A stretch of DNA of 64,000 bases from Jannaschia seohaensis. GTDB lineage: Bacteria; Pseudomonadota; Alphaproteobacteria; Rhodobacterales; Rhodobacteraceae. The stretch's first letter is position 1. Every line of letters starts with the position of its first letter. The position numbers and the translations under genes are program-made. Of the stretch, positions 42,069 through 59,111 are shown piece after piece. The stretch is taken from assembly GCF_900116765.1 (NCBI RefSeq), contig NZ_UETC01000006.1, positions 124,001-188,000 on the forward strand. Reading direction: 5' to 3'. The notes under the pieces are model-generated. The model had not been told where the DNA came from, made no database searches, and saw only the letters and a list, made by a program, of their open reading frames with translations.

Positions 42069-42091
42069 GTCGTCCGCCTTTCCGTGCTCCG

Positions 42092-42766
42092 GTGCGGGAG
42101 CTCGCATTGGTAGGGTCGGTCAGGGCTCGCGACGTCGGCGCCCTGGGGTTCGATCGCACGATCCGACATTGGGAGCCGGTGTTTGCGCGGGCCAACTGGC
42201 TGCTGTCAGGCCTATACCCGGATGTTCGCATTGGCGACGCAGCTGGTTCCGCTCTGCTGTTCAACATGGAGAAGCTCTTCGAGACGGTACTCGGACTGCA
42301 CATCCGGCATGCTTGCCAGGTAGAGGCCGGTGCTCGCCTTTCTGTCGGACTTCAGAGCCCTGTGAAGAACCTCGCGACGGCGGGCTTCCAGCTGCGCCCC
42401 GACGTTACCGTTCAGACCGGAGACAAGTGCGTCGCCATCTTCGATGCGAAATGGAAGCGCCTCGATCTCGCCGAACCGAACTCGGGCGTCTCGAGCGGCG
42501 ACGCGTATCAGATGAACGCCTACGCCAGTCGCTACCGCTGTAAGCGACTCGCGCTCGTTTACCCGGCCTCGAGGGACTGCCCGCCAGGAAGGATCACCGA
42601 GTTCGTGCTCATGACCGAAGAGCGCCCGGTACTGGATGTGGTCGCGGTCGATGTTCGAGAGCTCGCCTTTGGCACCGGAATCCCGGTCGGCATCGATGCG
42701 ATGATCCCGATCGAGCCGCACTGGAAGCAACGGTCATCGCAGGCACCGATTTACGAAGCGGTATGA
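42092..42766 (+). pseudogene. mcrC: McrC nuclease subunit, C-terminal fragment
   Basis: About 225 residues matching only the C-terminal half of McrC, the nuclease partner of the McrB GTPase in modification-dependent restriction. HWEPVFARANWLLSG and ALLFNMEKLFETVLGLHIRH are the typical central motifs. The PD-(D/E)XK nuclease core is FQLRPDVTVQTGDKCVAIFD followed directly by AKWK (PD, D, AKWK), then DAYQMNAYASRY. The N-terminal DNA/McrB-binding part is missing and no mcrB is adjacent. The frame abuts the end of the polysaccharide gene, so the break lies at about 42070-42095. The nuclease residues look intact, but a fragment without McrB is unlikely to work. Confidence 0.85.
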
Positions 42767-42786
42767 AGGACTTCGGCCCCTCTTTC

Positions 42787-42806
42787 TTCCACATTGCTTC
42801 CACGGG
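42787..42806 (+). repeat. Direct repeat 1 flanking attachment core
   Basis: TTCCACATTGCTTCCACGGG. Matches 43049-43068 at 18 of 20 positions. The two copies lie on either side of the tRNA-Met fragment, as expected for arm-type integrase binding sites. Confidence 0.65.
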
Positions 42807-42821
42807 TGGTTCAAACGCAAA

Positions 42822-42841
42822 CGCCGCCCTGGAGGGCGGCG
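42822..42841 (-). terminator. Rho-independent terminator behind the tRNA-Met 3' end
   Basis: Perfect 8-base stem CGCCGCCC / GGGCGGCG with a 4-base loop. Read on the minus strand it is followed by TTTGCGTTT. It lies 28 bases past the CCA end of the tRNA fragment, so it is probably the original tRNA terminator. It would also stop the mcrC fragment from the other side. Confidence 0.7.
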
Positions 42842-42869
42842 CGTAAGCGTTTGGAAGCGCGAGGGTATT

Positions 42870-42916
42870 TGGTTGCGGGGAGAGGATTTGAACCTCTGAC
42901 CTTCAGGTTATGAGCC
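42870..42916 (-). tRNA. tRNA-Met (CAT) 3' fragment, attachment site
   Basis: On the minus strand the sequence runs from the anticodon arm (GGCTCATAACC, anticodon CAT) through the variable loop and the T arm (AGAGGTTCAAATCCTCT) to the acceptor strand CCCCGCAACCA. The D arm, the 5' acceptor strand and most of the 5' anticodon stem are absent; upstream sequence bears no likeness to a tRNA. This is the classic footprint left when an element integrates into a tRNA 3' end. The intact tRNA-Met should lie at the far end of the island, beyond 64000. Confidence 0.88.
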
Positions 42917-43048
42917 GTGTTGAACGAACCATGAACAATCACTCGGAACCGCGAATTCTTGCGCAATTTCGGACACTTGCCGATCCCGGAGCTGAGGCTC
43001 CGCTTCGCACGATCTGTCGGGATTGCGCAGCGTTTTTCGGCCTCGTGC

Positions 43049-43068
43049 TTCCACAATGCTTCCAAGGG
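43049..43068 (+). repeat. Direct repeat 2 flanking attachment core
   Basis: TTCCACAATGCTTCCAAGGG, same orientation as 42787-42806 with two differences. Lies about 130 bases inside the island from the tRNA fragment. Confidence 0.65.
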
Positions 43069-43099
43069 GCCGTGAGCTGATTTTCCGGTAGCACGACCA

Positions 43100-44539
43100 T
43101 CAGGCGGCGGTGAGCGACCAGAAGCCGAACTTCCTGCCGTGTTCCTCCTTCAGCCGGGCGACATAGGCGTCGTGCGTCTCGAACGCGCCGAAGTCCGGGA
43201 TGTCGCCCGCGAGCCGCGCGCAGCTGGCGAGGTGCTCGGCGGCATAGCGATACCGCTTCGCCCGCGTTCTGGTGAGCGTGAAGTCGATCATCGCGCGGAG
43301 CACCAAGGTCGCGGCCAGCGGATGACGCTCTGACAGGGCCTCCGCCGCGGGGGCGAGATACTCGTAGTGGTCGCCGTCGATCTCGTCGTGCCGGGCCACC
43401 AGGAGTTCGGCGGCGCGATCCAGCGCTGGCCAGTCGAGGAAGAATTGCAGGGTGTGAAGAAGGCTTGGATAGGCCATGGCGTGCGCCATCGCCCGCTCTT
43501 CGGCCTCGATGTCGTCGAAGTCGGGCAGCTGCTTGAGATAGGCCCGCAGGTAGCTGTCGGAGAGTGTGCGTTCGAAGCAGTCCCTCCGGAACGCCTGCGC
43601 CTCCTCGCCGCAACCCAGCGCCTCCAGCGTCTGCAGGCGAATGTCCTGCCAGGCCAATGGAACCCGCAAACCGTCGCCGAGCTCCGCGCGCTCGAGGAAC
43701 CCCAGCGCCTCGCCCGCCCTGCCGGCCGCGAGCAGACGCTGCGCAATCTCGGCCGCGATCTGCGGTACCTTGCGGGTCTTCGGATCGTACTGGGCGATGA
43801 AGCCGTCGACGTCTCCCTGCGCGTCGGCGATGTCCTTGAGCGCCATGGCGACCGTGCTGGTGCGCTCACGCGCCCGCATCTCGTGCTCGTAGGTGGTGCC
43901 GCCCGTGCCCCAGCCCACCGCTTTCCATTGGTCTTTCGGCGGCACCGGCACGGGCGAACGACCGAGTTCTTCGGCCATCGATTTCAGGGCCGCGAGCCCC
44001 TCGTCGCCAAGCGCCGGGGCCATGATGCCGATCAGGCAGTCATACTGGCCATAGCCGTTGTCCTGAAGCGCATCGAGAACAGTGCCGGCGAGCGCCTGCG
44101 GGTCCGGACGGACCTTCTTGGCAAGCTGACCCAGATCTGCACAGGCCTGGTGGAAAATGCCGATGACGGTGCCGCTGGAGTCGTCGCAGCGCTCGAAGAC
44201 GGGCGTGGCCAACGCCATGAACCGCCACATGAGCGTGAGCGCCTCGTCTGGATCGGCGGGCGCGATCTGCTCGACGATGGCGCGACGCTGGGTCTCGAGA
44301 TCCGTGACCACCGCCTTGCGGTTCTTCCAGGTGATGAAGCTGCGGGCCCGGGCGATGCTGGTCAGCCGCTTGGTGATCTCCCGCGCTGCCTCCCTCGGGC
44401 TCTGGGCGCCCGCCAGCGCCAGACGCAGCTTGCGCTTGGCCGCCGCATTGCCGGTGCTGACCTCGATCAGCAATTGCGCCAGGCGCTCGGTGCCCAGCGC
44501 TTCGAGGTTCTTCGCATTGAGGGTGGTCTTGGAGGCCAT
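43100..44539 (-). CDS. DUF6880-type protein
   Basis: A 479-residue soluble helical protein. It begins NLEALGTERLAQLLIEVSTG, then AAAKRKLRLALAGAQSPREA, and ends ETHDAYVARLKEEHGRKFGF. The chain is a series of helix pairs, probably TPR/HEAT-like, with leucine/alanine-rich repeats (AEIAQRLLAAGRAGEALGFL). The N-terminal LGxxRLAxLLxE and the C-terminal YVARLKxxHxRKxxFW patterns fit the family known as DUF6880, found in alphaproteobacteria and frequently beside integrases. Function is unknown. It is divergent from the integrase with a 218-base gap. Confidence 0.75.
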   Translation of the reverse strand: MASKTTLNAKNLEALGTERLAQLLIEVSTGNAAAKRKLRLALAGAQSPREAAREITKRLTSIARARSFITWKNRKAVVTDLETQRRAIVEQIAPADPDEALTLMWRFMALATPVFERCDDSSGTVIGIFHQACADLGQLAKKVRPDPQALAGTVLDALQDNGYGQYDCLIGIMAPALGDEGLAALKSMAEELGRSPVPVPPKDQWKAVGWGTGGTTYEHEMRARERTSTVAMALKDIADAQGDVDGFIAQYDPKTRKVPQIAAEIAQRLLAAGRAGEALGFLERAELGDGLRVPLAWQDIRLQTLEALGCGEEAQAFRRDCFERTLSDSYLRAYLKQLPDFDDIEAEERAMAHAMAYPSLLHTLQFFLDWPALDRAAELLVARHDEIDGDHYEYLAPAAEALSERHPLAATLVLRAMIDFTLTRTRAKRYRYAAEHLASCARLAGDIPDFGAFETHDAYVARLKEEHGRKFGFWSLTAA

Positions 44540-44757
44540 CGGATCGCCAGTTCTTTTCCCCGAGCCTATCAGCGGCCAGCGGGATCCGGAACATGCGTTC
44601 TGATTCGCTGGGCTCGTCGATTTCCCGCATCAGCGCGCCAAAACGCCTTGCGCGGAAACGCGAGGAATTTCCTTTTTCTTCGCGCTTTCAATGTGTTCGT
44701 TGACTGTCGGCCGCACTTCAGCACTTTGGAACTTCGAGAGAACCACCGAAGAGCGCC

Positions 44758-45912
44758 ATGCCCAAGATCACCAAACGCCTCGTTGACGCCGCAGAAGCCC
44801 AACCCGCCGAATACTTCGTCTGGGACAGCGAGATCCCCGGCTTCGGACTGCGCGTGCTGCCGAGCGGGCGCAAGGGCTACGTGGTCCAGTATCGCGCCGG
44901 ACGCCGATCCCGGCGGATCAGCTTAGGGCCCAGCACGGTCCTGACCTGCGAGCAGGCGCGCAACCGCGCCATCTCCATTGTCGCTGCCGCGCGCAACGGC
45001 GCGGATCCCGCCGCCGAACGCGACGCGGGGCGCAAGGCGATCATGGTGAAGGAGCTGGCCGAGAGGTTCGACAAGGAGCACATCGCGATCCGCGTGAAGG
45101 CGAGCACGGCCAAGGAGTACCGCCGCAACCTCGAACGTTTCATCCTCCCTGCGCTCGGGCAACTCACGGTCACGGGCATCACCCGGGCGGACGTGGCGAA
45201 GTTCCATCACGACCTCCGCCACATTCCCTATCAAGCGAACCGCTGCCTCGAAGTGGTCTCGAAGATGTTCAGCCTCGCCGAGATGTGGGGTCTGCGTCCG
45301 GACGGCACCAACCCGCGAAAGCACATCCGGAAGTACCCAGAGGAGAAGCGCGAGCGGTTCCTCAGCGCGGCCGAACTCCGCCGCATCGGCGAGGTGCTGC
45401 GCGAGATGGAGGCGGAGGGAATCGAACTGCCCTCGGCCATCCTCGCCGCCCGCCTGCTGATCCTGACCGGCTGTCGTTTGAACGAGATCATGACGTTGCA
45501 GTGGACCCACGTCGATCTGGCCGAGCGCGTCCTGCGCCTGCCGGATTCCAAGTCCGGCGCCAAGGTCGTCCATCTCGGACAGCCCGCCGTCGACCTGCTC
45601 CGCGACGCCCAGCGCATCGACGGGAACCCGTGGGTCATCTTCGGCACTCTGTCTGGCAAGCGCCTGAGCGATCTACAGCCCTTCTGGCAGCGCGTCCGCG
45701 CCCGCGCCGGCGTGAAGGACGTCCGCATCCACGACCTGCGCCACACCTTCGCGTCCACGGCCGTCGCATCCGGTCAGGGCCTGCCGATGATCGGCAAGCT
45801 CCTTGGACACACGCAGGTCCAGACCACGGCACGCTACGCCCACCTCGCGGCCGAACCGGTGCGGATGGCGGCGGATGCAGTGGCGCAAAACCTCAGACAA
45901 TCCTTGGGATAA
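44758..45912 (+). CDS. Tyrosine integrase with DUF4102 arm-binding domain
   Basis: A 384-residue site-specific recombinase of the island type. The N-terminal DUF4102 arm-binding domain reads FVWDSEIPGFGLRVLPSGRK and YVVQYRAGRRSRRISLG. The SAM-like core-binding domain is at about 95-180. The catalytic residues are Arg240 (TGCRLNEI), the beta-hairpin Lys in DSKSGAK, His325 and Arg328 (HDLRHTFAS), His351 (LGHTQVQTT) and nucleophile Tyr360 (RYAHL). All are present, so the enzyme looks active. It lies 1.8 kb from the tRNA-Met fragment and presumably inserted the island there. Confidence 0.95.
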   Translation: MPKITKRLVDAAEAQPAEYFVWDSEIPGFGLRVLPSGRKGYVVQYRAGRRSRRISLGPSTVLTCEQARNRAISIVAAARNGADPAAERDAGRKAIMVKELAERFDKEHIAIRVKASTAKEYRRNLERFILPALGQLTVTGITRADVAKFHHDLRHIPYQANRCLEVVSKMFSLAEMWGLRPDGTNPRKHIRKYPEEKRERFLSAAELRRIGEVLREMEAEGIELPSAILAARLLILTGCRLNEIMTLQWTHVDLAERVLRLPDSKSGAKVVHLGQPAVDLLRDAQRIDGNPWVIFGTLSGKRLSDLQPFWQRVRARAGVKDVRIHDLRHTFASTAVASGQGLPMIGKLLGHTQVQTTARYAHLAAEPVRMAADAVAQNLRQSLG

Positions 45913-46252
45913 TCGCGCGCTGACGCGCCCCTTTTCGATTGATCGCGCAGTTCGCATGCACCCGTTGTTTGGCACCTGCTAGGCATCGATCGACACTTGG
46001 TGGTCGAGACAGTTGGACAGCCGCCCGCTTGCCACACTCCATGCGCGCGTCATGCGGAGCTCCGAAGCCATGGTGGCTTTGGACAATGCCCATCAGCATG
46101 GGACGAGTACCGACGTTGTCGGCAACCCGCGAGGCGTGAACCAGTCTCCGCCCTGTTGACCCGGACCGGCTGCTGTTGATTATGATTAAGTCTAGCCGTT
46201 GTGGCCATGAAGCGCTTTGGCACGCCTAACCCGCCAGTGACGGAGGAAGACG
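45913..46252. other. Gap between integrase and first defense-module gene
   Basis: About 340 bases. It carries the promoter of the 46253 operon, probably in the AT-richer stretch near 46170-46195 (TTGATTATGATTAAG). GGAGGAAG precedes the ATG at 46253. No gene recognised. Confidence 0.45.
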
Positions 46253-47263
46253 ATGACATCCGGCGAGTTTCAGAACCTACCGATCGATCAAGTAAAGCTT
46301 GATACGACGAACCCAAGAATTCGCCGATTTCTTGAGATATTCGATGAGGGCGTGATCGGTGATCACCATATCGGCCTTGCTCTGAATGCACCATCGAGTG
46401 ATAGCCCGACAGCTCTGGCCGACACCACAACGCCCTCTAGGCTAAGAGAGTCCATCATTGCCAATCGCGGTATTCGCCAGCCGATCATTGTGGATAGGCG
46501 AGAAGACGGCTCGCTCGTCTGCATCGAAGGCAACACGCGGCTGTGGATTTATCGCGATCTCCACAAGAAGGGTGCTACCGGAGACTGGTCGAAGATACCC
46601 GCTCTGGTACACAACGGCCTAGAACCCGAAAGCATCGATGCCATTCGTCTGCAGGCTCATCTTGTTGGGCCGCGCCCGTGGGATGCCTACTCCAAAGCGC
46701 GATATCTGCACGAGCTACAGAACGTGGAGTTGATGCCTCTTGAGAGAATCGTCGCTCTTTGCGGGGGCAATCAGAGGGACGTAACGCGCTCGATCCAGGC
46801 CTACGCCGACATGGAGGAGTTCTATCGCCCGCTGTGTGAAGCGGACGAGTTCGATCCGGAGCGATTTTCCGGTTTCGTCGAGTACCAGAGCCCTCGCGTT
46901 CAGGAGGCTATCCTCATGAACGGCTTTTCGGGCACGGACTTTGCTGAGTGGATTAAGGATCGCCGTATCAACACCTTGCAGGAGGTGAGGCAACTTCCTG
47001 CAGTGCTGAAAGACAAGAACGCAAAGGCCATCTTTCTCAAAGACGGGATGAAGATGGCGATCAGGGCGCTCGATCGCGAGGCGGACAATGTCGAACTGCA
47101 GAAGGCATCCCTTGCACAACTGGCCGCTGCGATTGCCAGCAAAGCGTATTCGATGCCGGAAATTCAGTCATTCAGGGAAGATGACGGAGCCACATTGAGG
47201 CACGTTGAAGCGGCGATAGATGCTCTGCAGACCCTGCAATCATTGATCGTTGACGCTGGCTGA
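46253..47263 (+). CDS. ParB-like N-terminal domain protein (first)
   Basis: A 336-residue protein. Residues about 9-100 form a ParB/Srx-type domain: LPIDQVKLDTTNPRIRRFLE at the start, then ESIIANRGIRQPIIVDRRED and SLVCIEGNTRLWIYRDL, with EGNTR as the GxxR phosphate-binding motif. The following region (VGPRPWDAYSKARYLHELQN, NQRDVTRSIQAYADMEEFY) looks like the helix-turn-helix part of ParB proteins. ParB domains bind CTP or ATP and DNA, and some have nuclease activity. It is not next to a parA, so partitioning is unlikely. It overlaps the next gene by one base (TGATG) and starts a four-gene operon with a second ParB-like gene at its end. Confidence 0.85.
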   Translation: MTSGEFQNLPIDQVKLDTTNPRIRRFLEIFDEGVIGDHHIGLALNAPSSDSPTALADTTTPSRLRESIIANRGIRQPIIVDRREDGSLVCIEGNTRLWIYRDLHKKGATGDWSKIPALVHNGLEPESIDAIRLQAHLVGPRPWDAYSKARYLHELQNVELMPLERIVALCGGNQRDVTRSIQAYADMEEFYRPLCEADEFDPERFSGFVEYQSPRVQEAILMNGFSGTDFAEWIKDRRINTLQEVRQLPAVLKDKNAKAIFLKDGMKMAIRALDREADNVELQKASLAQLAAAIASKAYSMPEIQSFREDDGATLRHVEAAIDALQTLQSLIVDAG

Positions 47264-47670
47264 TGTCCGGTGAGTCCGACGAGCACGCTCTATTGGTCTC
47301 CAGGCTGACGGCATTCGTCAGAGAGAAGCACGGCGGAGCCGGGAACTTGGCGTTGTATCTGGATGACCAGAAGATGGGGCGCGAGCGCCCGCAGCGCATT
47401 GGCGGCCATTTACCCGACCTATACGCTCAGGATGTGCCCCGCACATTCGTCGTTATCGGAGAGGCCAAAACGCAGTCGGACCTGATATCACCTCGCTCCC
47501 ATCGGCAACTTGCCACTTTCGTGCGCTATCTTTCGCTGCATAAGGCAGCGTTCTTCTACTTGGCCGTTCCATTCATTGCCAGGCCCACCGCGACGAAGCT
47601 GATGCGTGAACTTGAAGCCGCCTACGGAGCCGTAGGATCGCACATTTTGACGATTGATACGGGCTACTAG
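47263..47670 (+). CDS. Small PD-(D/E)XK nuclease-like protein
   Basis: A 135-residue protein whose core reads RIGGHLPDLYAQDVPRTFVV, then IGEAKTQSDL: a PD followed by EAK at the spacing of a PD-(D/E)XK nuclease active site, with a preceding acidic/helical segment. The C-terminal part continues the alternating strand/helix pattern (RQLATFVRYLSLHKAAFFYL; then AVPFIARPTATKLMRELEAA). Such small stand-alone nucleases occur in restriction-like systems. It is placed between the ParB-like and SNF2 genes, overlapping the first and two bases from the second. The assignment rests on the short motif and context only. Confidence 0.65.
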   Translation: MSGESDEHALLVSRLTAFVREKHGGAGNLALYLDDQKMGRERPQRIGGHLPDLYAQDVPRTFVVIGEAKTQSDLISPRSHRQLATFVRYLSLHKAAFFYLAVPFIARPTATKLMRELEAAYGAVGSHILTIDTGY

Positions 47671-47672
47671 AT

Positions 47673-49151
47673 ATGCTGCGCCCCGACCCAAGATTGAACC
47701 TCACGGCCAGATTTAAGGCGTTTCCTTACCAGATTGATGCGGTCGAGGCCGTGAAGTCTCTGGAATACGCAGCCCTCTTTCACGAGCAAGGGCTCGGAAA
47801 GACTAAGATTGCAGTCGATCTTGCCTTACATTGGCTAGCCGAGAGGACGGTCGATACGGTGATGATCATCACGAAGCGCGCGTTGGTGGAAAACTGGCGG
47901 CAAGAGTTGGCAAGTCACACTCATATAAAACCTGGGATCCTCAGCCAGGATCGTAAACACAACTTCTTCGTTCTCAACTCTTCTGCGAGGATTGTGCTTG
48001 GACACTTCGAGATGGTGCGCTCCGAACAACCGCGCCTTGAAATGTTCTTGAAGACGCGCAGAGTAGGCGTGATCCTTGACGAAGCGCAGAAGATCAAGAA
48101 TCCCTCAGCGGCGCTGACGCAGGCGTTTCATGAACTTCGGGAAGGCTTTGCGCGGCGGGTCATCATGACAGGAACGCCTGTGGCCAACCGACCCGAGGAT
48201 ATTTGGTCACAAGTCTTCTTTCTCGATGGGGGCGAAGCGCTCGGCGAAGACTTCGAAGCATTCCGATCAGACCTGTCACTGGACAACGACCTTCACCATA
48301 GCCCGGAGCGCCAGAAGAAATTCGCGGATGCCCTCGCTTCTGTATTCGAGAAACTTCGGGCGTTTTCCATCCGCGAAACAAAGAAATCAAGTGGTATCCA
48401 ACTCCCTGACAAGGTGGTGCGCACTGTCACCACCTACATGGCACCGCATCAGGCAAAGCTCTACGACACCTATCGCGAGCAAGCACGCGCGGAAGTCATG
48501 CAGGACGGGCAACTGACCGAGGATGACGCTGAAGCCGTCCTGAAACGGTTGCTTCGTTTGGTACAGGTTACGTCAAATCCGGCGCTCGTGGATGAAAGCT
48601 ACAAGGAGGAACCTGGCAAAGTCGCTGAGCTGAACCGTCTTGTGCGCGAGGCAACCGACGACGGTAGCAAGGTTATCGTTTGGACTTCGTTCGTGCGGAA
48701 CGCCGATTGGCTGTGTCAGCGCTTGGCGGAGTACGGTGCGGTCAGAGTGCACGGTGAGCTACCGATAGAGGTAAGAAACCGGGCCATCGAAGACTTCAAG
48801 AACTGCGAAGATGTAAGCGTTCTTGTGGCGACACCGGGTGCCGCGAAGGAGGGATTGACCCTGACCGTAGCCAACCATGCCATCTACTATGATAGGTCTT
48901 TCAGTCTGGATGACTATCTTCAGTCGCAGGACAGAATTCACCGGATCTCGCAGAAGCGCGAGTGCTACATATGGAACCTCATCTGCGATGATACGATCGA
49001 TTGCTGGGTGGACAGCCTGCTAAGCGCGAAGCGTCTGGCCGCACAACTGCTGCAGTCTGACGTAAGCAAGGAAGACTATGAGAATGCCGCCGACTACGAT
49101 TTCGGTCGTGCAGTCGCGGAAATTTTGAACCCCGTAGCGGAGGCAGAATGA
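47673..49151 (+). CDS. SNF2-family helicase/translocase
   Basis: A 492-residue superfamily 2 ATPase of Swi2/Snf2 type, compact, with no extra domains. Motif Q/I is FKAFPYQIDAVEAV then HEQGLGKTKIAVDLAL (Walker A about 40-44). Motif Ia is VMIITKRALVENWRQEL, motif II is VGVILDEAQKIKNPS and motif III is RVIMTGTPVANRPEDIW. The C-terminal lobe has SKVIVWTSFVRNADWLCQRL, VATPGAAKEGLTLTVANHAI and motif VI QSQDRIHRISQKREC. It probably translocates on double-stranded DNA to drive its nuclease/ParB partners. It overlaps the second ParB-like gene by four bases. Confidence 0.95.
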   Translation: MLRPDPRLNLTARFKAFPYQIDAVEAVKSLEYAALFHEQGLGKTKIAVDLALHWLAERTVDTVMIITKRALVENWRQELASHTHIKPGILSQDRKHNFFVLNSSARIVLGHFEMVRSEQPRLEMFLKTRRVGVILDEAQKIKNPSAALTQAFHELREGFARRVIMTGTPVANRPEDIWSQVFFLDGGEALGEDFEAFRSDLSLDNDLHHSPERQKKFADALASVFEKLRAFSIRETKKSSGIQLPDKVVRTVTTYMAPHQAKLYDTYREQARAEVMQDGQLTEDDAEAVLKRLLRLVQVTSNPALVDESYKEEPGKVAELNRLVREATDDGSKVIVWTSFVRNADWLCQRLAEYGAVRVHGELPIEVRNRAIEDFKNCEDVSVLVATPGAAKEGLTLTVANHAIYYDRSFSLDDYLQSQDRIHRISQKRECYIWNLICDDTIDCWVDSLLSAKRLAAQLLQSDVSKEDYENAADYDFGRAVAEILNPVAEAE

Positions 49152-50149
49152 GTCCGGACGAAGATTACATCCTGATCCGGCAGAAGAAGATACCTGCGGT
49201 TACACGCGACATACCGCATGAAGACCTGAACTTCTGGCCTGACAACCCGAGAGTTTATTCCCTGCTAGACCGCAGTGAGGCTGAACCTGACCAGAATTCG
49301 ATCTATCGTTCGATGTTAAAGCTGGAGCATGTCAGAGCGCTTAGGCATGATATTCTAGACAATGGCGGGCTCATCGACCCCATCATTGTTCGCGACTGTG
49401 ACTTTGTCGTCATCGAAGGTAACAGCCGCCTTGCCGCCTACCGCTCCTTGGCGGCTGACAACCCCGCCAAGTGGAACCTGGTTCGTTGCCGCATTCTGCC
49501 TGCCGACATAAGCGACGCAGATGTCTACGCGATGCTCGGGCAGTACCACGTCAAAGGGAAGAAAGACTGGGCGCCGTATGAGAAAGCCGGCTTCGTATAC
49601 CGTCGCCATGTCGATCAAAAAATCGACATTCCAGACTTAGCCCGCGAGCTTGGGGTTAGTCCGCAACATGTCAGACACCTGGTCAATGTCTTCCAGTTCA
49701 TGAAGGACAACAAGGACGAAAGTCGGGAACGCTGGAGCCACTATGACGAGTTCTTGAAGTCCAGAAAAATTAAGAAGGCCCGCGATGAGATAGCAGACTT
49801 CGAGCAAAGGGTCGTAAGGCTTATCAAGTCTGGAAAAGTCCGCGCAGTAGACATTCGAGACCAGCTCCCGGTTATCTGTGAGACACCGCAGATCCTAAAG
49901 AAATTTTCGAAGGGGGATGTGGATGTGGAGGAAGCCTACACCGACGCCAAGCATGCCGGCGGCGACAGTGTCGAACTCAGCAAGGTAAAACGCTTCCGCT
50001 CTTGGATTTGCGAACCGGATGTGCTCGATGAGATTGTTGAGCATAATCCCGGAGTTCGTCAAAAAATAGAGTTTGAACTGAAGAAGATCGAATCCAGAAT
50101 CGCAACAATACGAGAGCAGCTCGAGAAGGCGAAATCCGCGTCCCAATAG
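49148..50149 (+). CDS. ParB-like N-terminal domain protein (second)
   Basis: A 333-residue protein. The ParB/Srx domain reads EDLNFWPDNPRVYSLLDRSE, then RALRHDILDNGGLIDPIIVR and VVIEGNSRLAAYRSLAADNP, with EGNSRLAAYRSL a better match to the ParB box than in the first copy. IDIPDLARELGVSPQHVRHL is a clear helix-turn-helix. The C-terminus is a charged coiled coil (KKIESRIATIREQLEKAK). It closes the operon. The two ParB-like proteins are similar in plan but not near copies. Confidence 0.87.
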   Translation: MSPDEDYILIRQKKIPAVTRDIPHEDLNFWPDNPRVYSLLDRSEAEPDQNSIYRSMLKLEHVRALRHDILDNGGLIDPIIVRDCDFVVIEGNSRLAAYRSLAADNPAKWNLVRCRILPADISDADVYAMLGQYHVKGKKDWAPYEKAGFVYRRHVDQKIDIPDLARELGVSPQHVRHLVNVFQFMKDNKDESRERWSHYDEFLKSRKIKKARDEIADFEQRVVRLIKSGKVRAVDIRDQLPVICETPQILKKFSKGDVDVEEAYTDAKHAGGDSVELSKVKRFRSWICEPDVLDEIVEHNPGVRQKIEFELKKIESRIATIREQLEKAKSASQ

Positions 50150-50164
50150 GACCTGATCAGGTCC
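50149..50164. repeat. 16-base perfect palindrome at operon end
   Basis: GGACCTGATCAGGTCC, beginning on the last base of the TAG stop codon of the second ParB-like gene. Perfectly symmetrical with no loop, so more like a protein-binding site than a terminator hairpin. Confidence 0.5.
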
Positions 50165-50402
50165 ACGTCGTGGTGCTTGCATGCTTGCCGATGGCCTTCC
50201 CGCCGGCAGGGTGCCACGCCGCTTGCATTTTGTGCCAGCGATCTATGCTCCTACACGATATAGTGCCCGCGCAGTCAGGATTTGGTTGCGAACACCGTCC
50301 CGTCAGGTCCATACACAGACTGAGCCACGAAGTGACCACTGCTAGATCGACAAGCCGGCCTGCGGTAGGTAAGGTGGAACAGAACGCGAATCGAGGCAGA
50401 CC

Positions 50403-52031
50403 ATGGCCAACAAGAACATCCTTCTTGTAGAACCGGGCTACAGAAACAAGTACCCGCCGCTGGGTCTGATGAAGATTGCGCAGTATCATGGCCCGAACGG
50501 CAAGCGGGACAATGTTCGGTTCGTAAAGGGCGAGGACTCCTCGGCCTATGAGACGGCTTGGGACCGCGTGTACATCACGACGCTGTTTTCGTTCGAGTGG
50601 GAGCGCACGGCCCGCAGCATTGACTATGCCCTCGACCTCGTGGGCGGCCAGGCCCACCGCGTCTTCGTCGGCGGCATCGCGGCCTCGCTCATGCATGAGA
50701 GCTTTATCGACGAACCACGCTGGCGTGGCGTCCGCTTCATCAAGGGTCTCCTTGGCGAAGCGCCGGCCGTCTCACTCGGCCTGGACCCATTTGAGGAAGA
50801 GCTCTACGCCGATGACGTGAACGGTAAGCCCATCGAGGACCTCGTCCCAGACTACAGTATCCTCGACCACATCGAGTACCAGTATCCGGTCAATGACGCG
50901 TACTTCACCTACGCCTCGCGAGGTTGCGTGCGAAAATGCGCATTTTGCGGCGTCCCGAAGCTCGAGGGTGCTCAGCGCGATACGAATTCGCTGAGCGAAG
51001 TCGTCGAAGGTGTGAGTAAGCTCTATGGCGAGAAACGTGACCTGATCCTGATGGACAACAACGTGGTCGCCTCGGCCAACTTTAAAGAAATCATCGCTGA
51101 AATTATCGATCTTGGATTTGAGCGAGGCGCCAAGCTCAAACGGGGACGGTACGAACTGCAGCGGCGCGTAGACTTCAACCAAGGCGTCGATGCGCGCATC
51201 CTGTGCAAGGACCCAATGTACTTGCAGCAGCTGGCACGGATTGCGCTCAAGCCACTTCGCATCGCCTTCGACCATCTAGGTGTAAAGAAGCCTTACGCCC
51301 AGGCGATCCGCTATTCGGCGGATGCCGGACTGACAGAGCTTTCCAACTACATGCTCTATAATTTCAATGACAGTCCGGCTGATCTATTTGAGCGTATGCG
51401 GCTGAACGTAACGCTCAATGAGGAACTCAACATACGCATCTTTTCTTTCCCGATGCGCTACCAGCCTGTCGCTCGACCTGATCGCGGACATGTCGGAAAG
51501 AATTGGAATTCATATTACCTGCGCTCGATGCAGGTGATCTTGCAGGCAACGCACGGCATCGTCAGTGGTGCACCTGAATTCTTCCGGAAGGCGTTTGGCG
51601 ACACCTATGAAGAGTTCGAAAACATTTTGCTTCGTCCGCACCACTACATCTTCAATCGTTACTGGTATGAACAGTACGACGGGCGGTCTGAGTTCGATGA
51701 ATTCCAAGCGACGATGAGGGCGCTTTCGGACGATGAGCGCACCGAGCTTCTTGGCTTCCTGTGTACGCGCGATAAGAACGACTATGCGCGTGACCTGAAC
51801 GAGGTTGCCGCCGGCAAGCTACGAGAAGCTGCCCGGTTCTTCGTACCCATGTCCAAAGTAGATGAGGCGCGGATCTGGGAAGCTCAAAAGCGCCGGCGTG
51901 TTGAAGACATCAACGCCTATCTGGTTCCTGAGGATGAGCGAGTCGAAGATGCCGGCCTGACTGATGAGGATGTGCAGCCGTCCACGAATACGAAGAAACA
52001 GCTGAAAGGCATCACGCAGATTTACGCGTGA
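50403..52031 (+). CDS. Radical SAM protein with B12-binding-like N-terminal region
   Basis: A 542-residue protein. The N-terminus NILLVEPGYRNKYPPLGLMK has the start seen in B12-dependent radical SAM enzymes, but no DxHxxG cobalamin motif is visible. The iron-sulfur motif is SRGCVRKCAFCGVP: Cys175, Cys179 and Cys182 in CxxxCxxC spacing, followed by DLILMDNNVVASANFKEIIA and, later, QRRVDFNQGVDARILCKD, the strands of the radical SAM barrel. The C-terminal ~200 residues have no recognised fold. It lies 254 bases after the helicase operon and 22 bases before a GHKL ATPase gene, so it forms an operon with that gene. Substrate unknown. It lacks viperin-like length and motifs. Confidence 0.85.
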   Translation: MANKNILLVEPGYRNKYPPLGLMKIAQYHGPNGKRDNVRFVKGEDSSAYETAWDRVYITTLFSFEWERTARSIDYALDLVGGQAHRVFVGGIAASLMHESFIDEPRWRGVRFIKGLLGEAPAVSLGLDPFEEELYADDVNGKPIEDLVPDYSILDHIEYQYPVNDAYFTYASRGCVRKCAFCGVPKLEGAQRDTNSLSEVVEGVSKLYGEKRDLILMDNNVVASANFKEIIAEIIDLGFERGAKLKRGRYELQRRVDFNQGVDARILCKDPMYLQQLARIALKPLRIAFDHLGVKKPYAQAIRYSADAGLTELSNYMLYNFNDSPADLFERMRLNVTLNEELNIRIFSFPMRYQPVARPDRGHVGKNWNSYYLRSMQVILQATHGIVSGAPEFFRKAFGDTYEEFENILLRPHHYIFNRYWYEQYDGRSEFDEFQATMRALSDDERTELLGFLCTRDKNDYARDLNEVAAGKLREAARFFVPMSKVDEARIWEAQKRRRVEDINAYLVPEDERVEDAGLTDEDVQPSTNTKKQLKGITQIYA

Positions 52032-52052
52032 GAAAGAAACGGGAGCGGAGAC

Positions 52053-53600
52053 ATGGCTGAGGCGGCGCATATCGATGACGAAGGCTTTGACGATGCAGAA
52101 ATCTTCGTCGGCAAGGACGTGTTGGAGCTCCTTAGCAGCTCCATGTATGTCAATCCGCTCTCCATCTTCCGCGAGTACATTCAGAACGCCACCGATGCCG
52201 TCGATGATGCGGTAGCTGCCGGGCTCCTTGCTTCCAGTAATTTCGGCCTGATCGAGATTAATCTCGATCATATCGACCGGCGAGTTGTGATCCGCGATAA
52301 CGGCACGGGTTTGGCCAACCAGACCTTCGCCAGGCGAATGCTCTCCTTTGGCGCAAGTGATAAACGAGGCACGGACGCACGTGGGTTTCGAGGCGTCGGC
52401 CGGCTTTCTGCGCTCGGTTATGTTCAGCAGCTTGTGTTCCGCTCGCGCGCCAAGGGCGACACGAAGGTCCTCGAGGCCACGTGGGACGGACGCGTTGTTA
52501 AGCGCATGCTGGCATCCAATGATAGGGACTCCGACCTGCGCTCAATTGTTCGGGAGGCGGTGACGCTTAAGCGTCTGGAACCCGACGACTATCCGGTGCA
52601 TTTTTTCGAGGTCGAGCTCATCAAACCGCGCCGTATCGCCAATGACAGACTGCTCAACGAGATCGAGATCGAGAGCTTCGTGAGCCAGGTTTGCCCCTGT
52701 CCATTTTCGCCCGAATTCTCTTTCGGTGAGGAGATCGCTGATCTGCTCTCTCAGCATGGCCGTGCTGGCAAGGCGTACCGGATTCACATCAACGGATCAG
52801 AGGAGCCAGTCTACCGGCCCTATCGCGACCATGTCGAATATTCAGACACGAAGCGCGCTTCGCTGCGCAGCCTGAAGACCTTCGAGATTGAGAGCATCGA
52901 TGGAGCGCCAGCCGCTGTCGGCTGGCTCATTCATCATGACTACCAAGGTGCGATTCCCGCTGCGCAGGGAGTCCGGGGTTTGCGCGCTCGTGTCGGCAAT
53001 ATCCAAGTCGGCCATGATCGGCTGTTCTTGGAGATATTCCCTGAAGATCGCTTCTGTTCTTGGACCATTGGAGAGGTTCACGTGCTTGATGGTCGCGTCG
53101 TCCCGAACGGCCGCCGCGACGAATTCGAGAGCAACGCACATCTCGACAATATCATCGCTCACCTAAGACCTGTTGGCGCCGAAGTGGCGCGCGAGTGCCG
53201 TGTCTCCTCACAAAAGCGAAACCGCTTCAAGACATTCGAGCTCGCGGCCGACAAGGTCTACGAGAAGCTCGATGTCCTCAAGCAAGGGGCGATTTCGGAT
53301 CGGTACGCCAAATCAATCAAGGCTGAGATCGGCACGCTGCTGTCTGAAATGAGAAAAGCTGTGGACTTTGATCTTTTCGAGGATGCTGATCGCCGTACAA
53401 TGCGGTCACGCCTTATGACGATCGAGAAGGCAGTCGATGCCTATGCAAGCAAAGCAGAAGGCGACATTTTCGAGCACCTGCCTGAACGGAAAAGGGCCAC
53501 CTACAAGGAAGTCTTTGATCTGATTTACGATTGTTCCGTCAACCAAGTAGCAGCAAAGAGCCTCATCGATCGTATGCTTGACCGGCTATCAAGGTCCTAG
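52053..53600 (+). CDS. GHKL (Hsp90-type) ATPase
   Basis: A 515-residue protein with an N-terminal Bergerat ATP fold: N box FREYIQNATDAVDDA (Asn45), G1 box VIRDNGTGL (about 80-87), and a lid/G2 region SFGASDKRGTDARGFRGVGR with GFRGVGRLSALGY. The middle resembles the transducer domain of Hsp90/MutL-like proteins (residues about 200-350). The C-terminal third is helical (KYSKSIKAEIGTLL-type helices, then EHLPERKRATYKEVFDLIYD). Proteins of this shape appear in several bacterial defense loci as ATP-driven clamps or sensors. It is coupled to the radical SAM gene (22-base gap). Confidence 0.9.
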   Translation: MAEAAHIDDEGFDDAEIFVGKDVLELLSSSMYVNPLSIFREYIQNATDAVDDAVAAGLLASSNFGLIEINLDHIDRRVVIRDNGTGLANQTFARRMLSFGASDKRGTDARGFRGVGRLSALGYVQQLVFRSRAKGDTKVLEATWDGRVVKRMLASNDRDSDLRSIVREAVTLKRLEPDDYPVHFFEVELIKPRRIANDRLLNEIEIESFVSQVCPCPFSPEFSFGEEIADLLSQHGRAGKAYRIHINGSEEPVYRPYRDHVEYSDTKRASLRSLKTFEIESIDGAPAAVGWLIHHDYQGAIPAAQGVRGLRARVGNIQVGHDRLFLEIFPEDRFCSWTIGEVHVLDGRVVPNGRRDEFESNAHLDNIIAHLRPVGAEVARECRVSSQKRNRFKTFELAADKVYEKLDVLKQGAISDRYAKSIKAEIGTLLSEMRKAVDFDLFEDADRRTMRSRLMTIEKAVDAYASKAEGDIFEHLPERKRATYKEVFDLIYDCSVNQVAAKSLIDRMLDRLSRS

Positions 53601-53675
53601 GTTTCCAGCAGGTTGCAGGCGCGACGACAAGGTTGTTTCCTGCCTGCGATCTCTATTTTGATCGGTTTTCAACGT

Positions 53676-56540
53676 TCAAATCCGCTCGAATGGAATCACG
53701 ATCACCTGCCAAACTCTCGTATCAATCAGCTTCTCGTCCCCAACAATCCTCTCGAGCCGTCGCGATGCAAAAGCCCCCAGCGCCTCGGCCTCGCGTTCGA
53801 CCCTCATGGCGCGTGCTTCGGCAATGCGCGCCTGCCGTTCGTCGGACGAAATCTGCGCACGGAAAGCAGCTGCGCGCGCTTGGGCCTCACTTTTCTCGCG
53901 GTGAGCCTCCGCCTTCACCAATTCGGACCTGCGTGCGACCTGCCCCGGATCGGGTAGGTGCGGCTTGATGGCGTGGGCCTTGGCCCGCCTGCGCATCGCG
54001 GCGTCCCGAAGTCGGGAAACGGTGTCCGGCAGCGTTACGGGGTCACCCGCTACGAGCCTCCCTGTCTCAGCACGTGGGTCAAGAAAGGCTGTGACGTGGG
54101 ACGCCGGCAACCGCTCGAGATCGCCCCCCTCAGGGTTAATGGCCAGTCCTTCCAAGATAAGCCGGGTCGGCGCAGCGAGGCGCAGCCAGCGATCGTCGGC
54201 CTGTGAGGCGGCGCGAGCGTAGCGGCGCAGATGGCGCGCGTCCTCGCTGTTCAGGCCGTCCAACAGCCCGTCCCACCGGGCGTCTTCGTCAATTGGCAGC
54301 GACAGGCTGCATGCCGCTGCCGTCACAAGGAGGGGGCGAAGGTCGGACAGCGCAGAATGACCGGGCGGATATCCCACCGAGGCCACTGGAACTCTGTCCC
54401 GTTCGAGCGCGGTATCCGCCAGACTCAGGAACGCGGCGCAAAGCTGTTCATGAAATTCGTCGCCGTGGTCTATGAAGTGCAAGGGCCGGGCGACACCTTC
54501 GCGGTCCGTGGCCATCCTGAGCGGAGGGTCGGAAAGATGGCGTCTGTGGTGTAGAAAGGCGACCTGACCGGATCGTGGATTGGAACGTCGGTCGCCTTCG
54601 TTCCGACGCTCGAACAGTTCCAACGATAAGTCACGAGTTGCGCCGGAGTCTTTCACGCCGAGGTCAGCATACCATACACTGCCGAAGCGGGCGCCGTCTA
54701 CCGATTGGTCCTTCTGTCCCGTCCTCACGTCCAAAAGGCTCGACGCCCGGAGAGCCTCCAGCCAGGCAAGAAGCTCGGCCTCTTCAGGGCCACGGGCGCC
54801 GTGTTCCGGTCGCGACGGCCGCAATCCGCCAGGCAGGCTCTTGCGTTCCAACATGGTGCGATGGCGCGCCCGTGCCGCGTCCGCCGTGTTAGGGTCGTAC
54901 TGTGCGAGGCGGGAGGCTGCCAGTTCGCCGGTGCCGTCCCCGCCCATAAGCTCCAGGTCAGCCAAGGCAGCCGGTGCTTCCCGGCCCGCGGCCAGCGCGC
55001 CGAGGTGCCTCTCGATCTTTTTGGCGCGCTCCACGCTCATCGGAGGTGTTGGGCGCTCGAATACTCCTAGTCGTTCGAGACCATCGACGACGTCTGCCTC
55101 GGGCGACCCGGCCCATGTGATGGCGTGTATGCGAATACGCCCCTGATCCTGCCGCGCCTCCGCCGCCAGCGCCGCGCCCGGTCGTAGCCGGTCCAGACGA
55201 CCGACCAGCTGATCGATACTGCGGACGGTCCAAGGGCAGGAATAGAGGACGATGGTCTCGCACCCATGATGGAGATTCAGCCCGGCTTCGGCCCAATCGC
55301 CCAGCAGCAGGATGTCGTCGGAGCCGCTCACGAAATCGCCGATCGTATCGACGTTGCGCCGGATTGCTGCCTCGGCATCGGCCGCGGTGTGCTCACCGCG
55401 CGCTAGACGTGCGATGCTTGTCTGTTCGCCTTCCGAAGAGCTCTGAAGGTAGGCGGGCAAGATACGTTCCAGGCGGGCCATCGTGTCGTTGTCTCCCGCG
55501 ACCACGAGCACACGGGCGTTAGCATCCTCTGCACGGATCATCGCCAAGAAGTCGAGCAGCGCGTCCAGTCGGGAGTCGCCAATATTCGCATCCGCACTGT
55601 CGGGCATCTGGAAAAGATCGTTGGGGAGGGCGGCAAGCGCGTCGCGAGACGCCCGTCCGAGGCGGTGGAGCGCCCGTGCTCGGCTTATGGGATCGCTGCC
55701 GACGGTGCGCGCCAACACCTTTCGCGCTGTGGCGGCAAGACCGGCCTCGCGGACGAAAGTCGGGACGTTGGCGCGAGTGTAGTCTCGGCGTGGCATGTAG
55801 TCTGGCCAATCGGCCCGCGACCACCGGCAGATACGTCGACCGAATGCATCCCGCTCAAACGCGGTTCGAGCCTCGTCTGCGGACCGGATCGAGGCCGCGG
55901 CTGTCATCTCGTCCCGCCTGATGACCTCCGTTGGGTCGTCCGCGGTAGCGCTGCGAAGGGGCTCCAACATGGAGACGAACCAATGCAGCATTTCCGGTCG
56001 GCCAAGCTCCGGCGTCGCCGTCAAAGCAATAAACTGGGCGAAGGGTCGGGCGCGGGCTAGGGTGTCGCGTTGTGCGACTGTAAAGCTCTGCGGCTCGTCT
56101 AAGACGAGAAGGTCGTAGTGTTCGGACCCATGCCTCAGATGCACCGACAACGAAGATGGCTTGATAATTCTGACTGAGACGTCGGCCTCATCCTCCGAGG
56201 TGTTGCCGTCGATGAAGGCCGCTTCGCAGTGGCCACGAGTGGTCAACTCCTGTAGCCACTGGCCGATCAGATGGTCTGGGACCACGAGCAGCGTCCGATG
56301 GTCCGGGTCCTGGAGGCGCAGGGCGTTTAAGATCATAAGGGTCTGCACGGTTTTACCCAGCCCCACGCCGTCGGCCAGCAGATGCCGCAGCTCGGGCGCC
56401 TCCAGAATTCGGGCCACGTTGGCCATTTGGTGAGGCAAGGGATCTGCAGCGACCCCTAGCGCGCCTAGAAGCGCGTGGTCGCGCTCCACGCGCCGGCGGA
56501 GCGCCTGCACACCGTGGGCCATGCGCAGGTAGGCGTTCAT
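53676..56540 (-). CDS. SNF2-like helicase with divergent motif II (DrmD/DpdE-like)
   Basis: A 954-residue protein starting at ATG 56540, overlapping the stop of the 832-residue gene (ATGA). The helicase core has PHQMANVARILEAPELRHLL, Walker A ADGVGLGKTVQTLMIL (58-64), LLVVPDHLIGQWLQEL, motif II YDLLVLDEPQSFT (DEPQ instead of DEAH/DEAQ), motif III FIALTATPELGR and motif VI IDQLVGRLDRLRPG. A C-terminal extension of about 450 residues ends in a charged coiled coil (HREKSEAQARAAAFRAQIS). Size and plan fit the large SNF2 proteins of DISARM (DrmD) and Dpd (DpdE) systems; which one is not decidable by eye. Confidence 0.85.
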   Translation of the reverse strand: MNAYLRMAHGVQALRRRVERDHALLGALGVAADPLPHQMANVARILEAPELRHLLADGVGLGKTVQTLMILNALRLQDPDHRTLLVVPDHLIGQWLQELTTRGHCEAAFIDGNTSEDEADVSVRIIKPSSLSVHLRHGSEHYDLLVLDEPQSFTVAQRDTLARARPFAQFIALTATPELGRPEMLHWFVSMLEPLRSATADDPTEVIRRDEMTAAASIRSADEARTAFERDAFGRRICRWSRADWPDYMPRRDYTRANVPTFVREAGLAATARKVLARTVGSDPISRARALHRLGRASRDALAALPNDLFQMPDSADANIGDSRLDALLDFLAMIRAEDANARVLVVAGDNDTMARLERILPAYLQSSSEGEQTSIARLARGEHTAADAEAAIRRNVDTIGDFVSGSDDILLLGDWAEAGLNLHHGCETIVLYSCPWTVRSIDQLVGRLDRLRPGAALAAEARQDQGRIRIHAITWAGSPEADVVDGLERLGVFERPTPPMSVERAKKIERHLGALAAGREAPAALADLELMGGDGTGELAASRLAQYDPNTADAARARHRTMLERKSLPGGLRPSRPEHGARGPEEAELLAWLEALRASSLLDVRTGQKDQSVDGARFGSVWYADLGVKDSGATRDLSLELFERRNEGDRRSNPRSGQVAFLHHRRHLSDPPLRMATDREGVARPLHFIDHGDEFHEQLCAAFLSLADTALERDRVPVASVGYPPGHSALSDLRPLLVTAAACSLSLPIDEDARWDGLLDGLNSEDARHLRRYARAASQADDRWLRLAAPTRLILEGLAINPEGGDLERLPASHVTAFLDPRAETGRLVAGDPVTLPDTVSRLRDAAMRRRAKAHAIKPHLPDPGQVARRSELVKAEAHREKSEAQARAAAFRAQISSDERQARIAEARAMRVEREAEALGAFASRRLERIVGDEKLIDTRVWQVIVIPFERI

Positions 56541-59035: not shown

Positions 59036-59111
59036 GCTTGCCCAACCCCACTCCGGCCAATATCACCTCAAGGACTCTGGTTGTGGACGAGGGACAAACG
59101 GGTAGCAGGTC

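Follow-up and report, generated by a model that had tools for sequence, protein, structure and literature searches.

A conserved ParB/nuclease/SNF2/ParB cassette beside a radical SAM enzyme in Jannaschia seohaensis, a candidate modification-restriction system

An operon in Jannaschia seohaensis combines two ParB-domain proteins, a small nuclease and an SNF2 motor with a radical S-adenosylmethionine (SAM) enzyme and a GHKL ATPase. It lies in a window of 64,000 nucleotides, which is the whole stretch of DNA that was analysed (contig NZ_UETC01000006.1, positions 124,001 to 188,000). The six genes of the operon are listed below in window coordinates.

46253..47263, + strand: ParB1, with a ParB-like N domain and the box EGNTR
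47263..47670, + strand: PD-(D/E)XK nuclease of 135 residues, predicted catalytic residues D52, E67 and K69
47673..49151, + strand: compact SNF2 ATPase/translocase with intact motifs (Pfam SNF2-rel_dom 1.5e-28, Helicase_C 1.2e-17)
49148..50149, + strand: ParB2, with a ParB-like N domain, a helix-turn-helix (HTH)-like region and the box EGNSRLAAY
50403..52031, + strand: radical SAM enzyme with C175xxxC179xxC182, DFNQGxDAR and a Rossmann-like N domain, proposed to modify DNA
52053..53600, + strand: GHKL (HSP90/MutL-type) ATPase, accessory (Pfam HATPase_c_3 2.2e-9)

The first four genes had been recognized from the letters of the window as an operon spanning 46253-50149, and their coordinates and + strand are confirmed, together with the EGNTR box, the ParB2 box, the PD...EAK motif and an intact set of SNF2 motifs. 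The stop/start overlaps described for them hold at the first and last junctions (1 and 4 nucleotides, respectively), and at the middle junction the SNF2 start follows a 2-nucleotide gap. The four genes do not form the whole unit, as was first thought, since the radical SAM and GHKL genes of the same low guanine-plus-cytosine (GC) content follow position 50149. The GC content of the operon genes is 0.52-0.58, compared with 0.67-0.68 on the left and 0.60-0.65 on the right, and the values for the radical SAM gene (0.558) and the GHKL gene (0.559) fall within this operon range.

ParB1 and ParB2 are paralogues (E 1.2e-6). Pfam ParB_N is matched only below threshold (0.02 in each), and ParB2 matches TIGR00180 parB_part at 2.6e-4, under the family cut-off. 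The EGNTR box of ParB1 occupies residues 92-96, and E92, G93, N94, T95 and R96 are at least 95% conserved in 75 rows; the box of ParB2, EGNSRLAAYRSL, occupies residues 90-101, with E90-Y98 at least 95% conserved in 81 rows. At the limits applied, Pfam, NCBIfam, PADLOC and PHROGs yield no match for the 135-residue protein. Its computed core of a helix, three strands, a helix and a strand is that of the PD-(D/E)XK superfamily, as had been suspected from its motifs, and both PD (residues 51-52) and EAK (67-69) are conserved (P51, D52, E67, A68 and K69 at least 95% in 73 rows). The SNF2 protein is closest among solved sequences to the Snf2/Rad54 helicase 1z63 (2.5e-37), and E38-K43, D136-E137, T166-P169, Q417 and Q419-R424 are at least 95% conserved in 80 rows. 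In the GHKL ATPase the same applies to N45, D48, D82 and G111-G114 (47 rows).

The radical SAM protein carries the CxxxCxxC motif in a radical SAM core, with C175, C179 and C182 invariant in 23 rows. Its best structural matches are AprD4 (22.7) and MgmA (21.5), and CysS, MiaB, RimO and TsrM are also matched. As to membership of the cobalamin-dependent radical SAM enzymes, the N domain has a Rossmann-like fold, but a DxHxxG motif was not found in the window protein and AprD4, the best structural match, is not known to bind cobalamin.

Profile scans covered the six operon genes, the integrase on their left and four right-hand neighbours. No parA, methylase or replication gene turned up among the operon genes, in agreement with the original prediction. 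Six promoters were predicted where 4.1 are expected, and 4 terminators compared with 7.2 in shuffles, which is no signal in either case, and a Rfam search of 41500-54500 returned a single match, far under the gathering score.

Conservation of the neighbourhood had been named beforehand as one of the points on which the original prediction would stand or fall. Loci were picked by ParB2 alone, using a ParB2-alignment scan of one genome per species. At E ≤0.001 there are 787 ParB2 homologues; 94 relatives carry two short ParB2 patterns, a selection that divergent systems escape, and the best 80 of these 94 were compared. Open reading frames were taken from our own script, not a gene finder, and some starts are placed too far upstream. 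The complete cassette, in which ParB2 is joined by another ParB, the nuclease and the SNF2 gene, is present in 74 of the 80 loci (a locus with a split ParB1, L067, and one with a split SNF2 gene, L080, being counted as complete), and in all 74 its genes are co-directional in the order ParB-nuclease-SNF2-ParB. Such recurrence in loci chosen by ParB2 only means that the four-gene set occurs together far beyond chance, and on this point the original prediction stands. Three incomplete loci are contig-edge cases (L037, L046 and L050), one has SNF2 and ParB2 only (L049), and two have a lone ParB2-like gene with proS, recognized by eye, adjoining (L083 and L085). L074 and L075 contributed identical SNF2 rows.

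Seventeen phyla are represented in the labels of the 74 cassette records, including Pseudomonadota (22), Bacillota (19), Bacteroidota (5), Acidobacteriota and Chloroflexota; 6 records are unassigned, and phylum labels may err because many of the records are metagenome bins. The system is rare. Matches to ParB2 (E ≤0.001) occur in 6 of 100 relatives of the window genome, itself included, and are strong only in itself and one other; the radical SAM profile (E ≤1e-20) finds 2 of 385 genomes of the host class, namely the window's own and one partial match. Annotated plasmid copies occur in Mesorhizobium, Rhizobium and Roseomonas, where the genes bear only generic names, namely hypothetical protein, DEAD/DEAH box helicase, ParB N-terminal domain, DGQHR domain, radical SAM/hypothetical and ATP-binding protein. 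The arrangement varies on a Bradyrhizobium plasmid, where a ParB2-like gene, one with a ParB HTH match, a pair of unnamed genes and a helicase gene stand opposite DGQHR, radical SAM and ATPase genes.

The cassette is linked to one of two kinds of enzyme. Counting a partner as present when it lies anywhere in the locus stretch examined, the 74 complete cassettes are accompanied by a radical SAM gene in 66 cases, a D12 adenine DNA methyltransferase in 6, both in none and neither in 2, and in these last two the contigs end less than 130 bp from ParB2. When at least 5 kb is available on each side (n=48), the corresponding numbers are 44, 4, 0 and 0. Adjacency was counted separately, and the partner gene is 0 to 2 genes away from the cassette in 72 of 72 loci. 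In two of the methyltransferase loci (L059 and L061) the cassette is preceded by D12 and N6_N4 methyltransferase genes, which we take to be DpnM and DpnA, and followed by a DpnII-family gene, as in a DpnM/DpnA/DpnII-like set (in L059, DpnII 5e-108 and N6_N4_Mtase 1.6e-64; the L061 genes were called by clustering with L059). Two others (L065, 2.3e-82, and L071, with the same Pfam domains) combine D12 with another type II endonuclease family, and in L069 and L070 the D12 gene is on the opposite strand. In a quick, midpoint-rooted SNF2 tree of 76 rows (L046, L049 and L080 left out; L083 and L085 have no SNF2), the six methyltransferase loci group together with support 99, inside a branch (100) whose other members are 22 radical SAM rows, and the tree flags odd letter composition in L059, L061 and L065 among others. 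Because the six loci form one clade, the replacement of radical SAM by DNA methyltransferases is a single event in these data.

Of the 66 radical SAM loci, 39 have a GHKL gene, each time adjoining radical SAM; the 8 complete cassettes without radical SAM have none. DndB/DpdB-like proteins are members of the Dnd and Dpd DNA-modification systems; a gene of this kind (DGQHR) is found in 26 of the 66 loci, adjoining radical SAM in 24. Since 25 of the 66 have neither GHKL nor a DndB-like gene within the stretch examined, the minimal form looks like five genes. In 9 loci a 224-residue-type gene takes DpnII's place; a class-C radical SAM gene was seen in 8 of the 9. As separate observations, a second GHKL ATPase together with a PIN-domain protein (PIN_8 2.9e-24 in L015) adjoins the operon in L014, L015, L016, L021, L023, L025 and L063 and on plasmids L168 and L169. 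At L181:1275-10086, radical SAM and the cassette are followed by a 224-residue-type gene (by eye) fused to a LexA/UmuD-like domain (lexA 3.2e-6), and a reverse-transcriptase-like gene (by eye) lies upstream of them.

A reciprocal search queried 2.9 million viral contigs with the radical SAM protein, and 79 loci of 470 relatives were examined. The cassette is present in 8 of the 79; in one of them (L092) no nuclease was found, and another (L089) is identical to the window. The radical SAM/GHKL pair is reused with other DNA-targeting modules. Four viral contigs (L110, L111, L098 and L223) carry radical SAM and GHKL with HerA-like and NurA-like genes, HerA-like being named from one weak match (PADLOC mad8, 1.3e-9) and NurA-like by eye with no profile match, and one contig (L099) has DrmA (2.8e-161), DrmB (1e-52), a NERD helicase, radical SAM and GHKL. 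In two loci, L197 and L207, the stretch examined contains a GHKL gene without a radical SAM gene.

Among the 60 viral loci L108-L167, which are mostly phage-like, a ParB-domain gene lies immediately upstream of radical SAM in 10, by a profile seeded with five of these ten adjacent ParBs (L113 and L114 are near-duplicates of each other). A regular expression for the ParB box, applied upstream of radical SAM genes in viral contigs, hit 17 of 63 loci and 60 of 604 control genes; this was too loose and profiles were used instead. Ten of 25 selected upstream proteins match PHROG 498 'DNA methyltransferase', through the N-terminal part in the one case shown, and 10 match the ParB-like PHROG 723. The partners of radical SAM in these contigs are thus repeatedly DNA-handling and ParB genes, although none was seen in most phage-like loci. 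Matches to phosphoadenosine phosphosulfate reductase PHROGs (best 4.9e-49) occur for three of the 25, a hint of sulfur chemistry. In addition, at L105:5076-10606 and L125:5122-10588, a radical SAM gene of the family comes right after type IV CRISPR-like csf1, csf2 and csf3 (typeIV_Cas7 5e-79 in L105), and a second radical SAM gene then follows (L125 being judged by eye from similar sequences).

Assignment to a known defence system was rejected. The NCBIfam matches were motor or ParB matches below cut-offs, those in PADLOC (no cut-offs) covered the motor or ParB part only, and the profile search gave no full match, as the original prediction had supposed. Among the closest known systems is type II restriction-modification of the DpnII kind: operons of this kind can contain the cassette (L059 and L061), and the logic of a modification enzyme and a nuclease is shared. 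However, the window operon has a radical SAM enzyme, an SNF2 motor and two ParBs instead of a methyltransferase and a type II endonuclease; the scans of its genes gave no DNA methyltransferase family match, and an operon methyltransferase is present in 6 of 74 relatives. The Dnd/Ssp phosphorothioation and Dpd 7-deazaguanine systems likewise tie unusual DNA-modification enzymes to ParB/DndB-superfamily proteins and superfamily 2 (SF2) motors, but the gene set is different, and the window operon shows no component beyond a DpdE-like motor (the relatives were only partly scanned). The DpdA transglycosylase is not among the operon-gene matches listed, and the SNF2 protein reaches 49 bits against a DpdE cut-off of 500. 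DISARM also combines SF2 motors and a modification enzyme, and the viral contig L099 joins DrmA-DrmB-NERD/helicase to radical SAM-GHKL; the window SNF2 protein resembles DrmD in the motor only, and DrmA, DrmB and the methylase are not among the operon-gene matches listed.

The MORC/paraMORC operons (Iyer et al. 2008, PMC2292703) likewise contain a GHKL protein, an SF2/SNF2 helicase and an RE-fold nuclease, in their case with DNA methylases. That paper mentions 'ParB' and 'radical SAM' 0 times, whereas the cassette-linked GHKL gene adjoins radical SAM and is absent from the 6 methyltransferase-replaced loci. Prokaryotic viperins are likewise radical SAM enzymes in antiviral defence, but the window enzyme belongs to a different subgroup by structure. 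For Zorya, ZorA, ZorB and ZorC are not among the operon-gene matches listed, and the SNF2 motor scores 87 bits with ZorD, for which the NCBIfam cut-off is 1500. No ParA match was found among the operon genes, as ParABS would have, and component A of PADLOC PD-Lambda-5 / PDC-M38 is matched in the ParB-like part only (best 8.3e-7, 25.7 bits), with no full-length match. No description of ParB, SNF2 and radical SAM as one system was found in the full-text literature covered, which excludes preprints and most subscription papers. PMC10853773, the one paper there to mention ParB, SNF2, nuclease, anti-phage and radical SAM together, applies 'radical SAM' to DndC in a passage. The operon is apparently undescribed.

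We propose, with moderate confidence, that the operon has moved horizontally and encodes a modification-restriction system, pairing a DNA-marking radical SAM enzyme with a ParB/SNF2/nuclease restriction module. The radical SAM enzyme would mark particular sites of the host DNA chemically, assisted in the window locus by the GHKL ATPase. ParB1 and ParB2 would recognize or clamp onto DNA without the mark, or with a foreign mark, after which the SNF2 motor would translocate and the PD-(D/E)XK subunit would cut. On this proposal DNA is the presumed substrate of the radical SAM enzyme, the mark would be protective, and the ParBs would act as readers while SNF2 drives the cutting, phage being the probable target. 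DpdB is described in PMC12839542 as a ParB-like ATPase with a part in deazaguanine base insertion, and PMC5512222 cites a ParB-methylase fusion with nicking activity; together they provide a precedent for ParB-superfamily proteins in modification systems. For GHKL ATPases in restriction-modification operons, a precedent is given in PMC2292703. The restriction-like function originally suggested for the cassette is partly supported: six cassettes stand beside DNA methyltransferases, four of them also with a type II endonuclease gene. In 66 of 74 the place of the methyltransferase is held by radical SAM.

Several observations weigh against the proposed system. The fold of the radical SAM protein is silent on its substrate. 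The structures that it resembles most come from enzymes whose substrates are sugars, proteins, tRNA and small molecules, and no host radical SAM enzyme is known to modify DNA. The exchange with a methyltransferase counts only once. A separate type II endonuclease gene is also carried by 4 of the 6 methyltransferase loci, which casts doubt on whether the cassette cuts alone, and it may be a helper rather than a cutter. GHKL is lacking from 27 of 66 radical SAM loci, and 50 of the 60 viral loci L108-L167 have no adjacent upstream ParB found. Strict exclusion between the two kinds of partner is weakened by D12-like matches on two viral contigs with radical SAM (L205 and L227) and by a methyltransferase-like gene in the flanks of 2 of 66 radical SAM loci (L009 and L075, by a crude motif test), and the methyltransferase profiles were built from the clade of the six methyltransferase loci, so other types would escape.

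Three other explanations have to be considered. The radical SAM enzyme might make an antiviral nucleotide analogue in the manner of viperin, or modify tRNA or a peptide, with the cassette as a separate nuclease effector and defence proceeding without DNA marking. Prokaryotic viperins are antiviral radical SAM enzymes (PMC12926258), and enzymes of the same fold include the tRNA and protein methylthiotransferases MiaB and RimO. However, viperin structures score about 10 in the structural match table, far under AprD4 and MgmA, and the D12 replacement, the DpnII and DndB/DpdB-like neighbours and the upstream ParBs of phages are left unexplained, so we regard this explanation as improbable. It is also unlikely that the cassette is a helper of any DNA-modification system, which surveys or mends wrongly modified DNA, or propagates or controls the modification, while DpnII, a GHKL partner or another gene does the cutting. 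The two cassettes inside operons with a DpnII gene, the two beside another type II endonuclease gene and the 224-residue-type gene in DpnII's place would fit such a role, but a nuclease with conserved catalytic residues is part of the cassette itself, and among the 25 radical SAM loci without GHKL or a DndB-like gene there are several without any other recurrent neighbour.

A maintenance or partition module of mobile elements, with the ParBs as centromere binders, appears very improbable. Copies beside integrases and on plasmids would suit it, but copies are also chromosomal, and the methyltransferase and radical SAM partners speak against it. A plain partition module was rejected, as no parA appears in the operon-gene scans and a nuclease and SNF2 gene accompany ParB2 in 74 of 80 loci.

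Beyond the proposed modification-restriction system, we suggest tentatively that the radical SAM mark goes beyond what ordinary methyltransferases make (e.g. a carbon-linked methyl or a methylthio group), that radical SAM/GHKL serves as a plug-in for twin-ParB/SNF2/nuclease, NurA-like/HerA-like and DISARM arms, and that phage relatives with ParB partners are used for counter-marking. If the radical SAM enzyme does mark DNA, this would be a new class of modification-restriction, and a widespread self/non-self system based on radical chemistry on DNA, labelled to 17 phyla and rare in each, would come into view. A modified base would still have to be discovered, and DNA modification would extend past methylation, phosphorothioation and deazaguanine. 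The phage radical SAM genes of PHROG 9298 (470 related stretches in viral contigs) would gain a role, and ParB proteins would gain a testable one as readers in restriction. Defence operons without a methylase may conceal a non-methylase modification gene next door.

Two features to the left of the operon bear on its mobility.

44758..45912, + strand: tyrosine integrase (Pfam Phage_integrase 8.9e-22; GC 0.67, unlike the operon)
42873..42916, - strand: tRNA-like 3' half, read by eye, candidate attachment-site remnant

The tyrosine integrase adjoining the operon likely marks the carrier element. The tRNA-like 3' half sits 1.8 kb left of the integrase and is single-copy in the genome with up to 2 mismatches allowed. 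This much agrees with the tRNA-integrated island that had been assumed for the locus, but ARAGORN finds no complete tRNA in the window, and no attachment-site direct repeat of at least 15 bases is present between 41500-46300 and the following 30 kb.

A DISARM-like cluster lies directly right of the operon (window 53676-64000) and also at L172:5367-10416. Its genes encode a DpdE/DrmD-like SNF2 protein, an 832-residue protein without a PADLOC match, a UvrD/GajB-like helicase, DrmA and DrmB (NCBIfam 463 bits); a DNA methylase was not seen in the right-hand cluster, where part of the open reading frames was scanned. The radical SAM/GHKL pair is thereby positioned between the cassette and the DISARM-like cluster.

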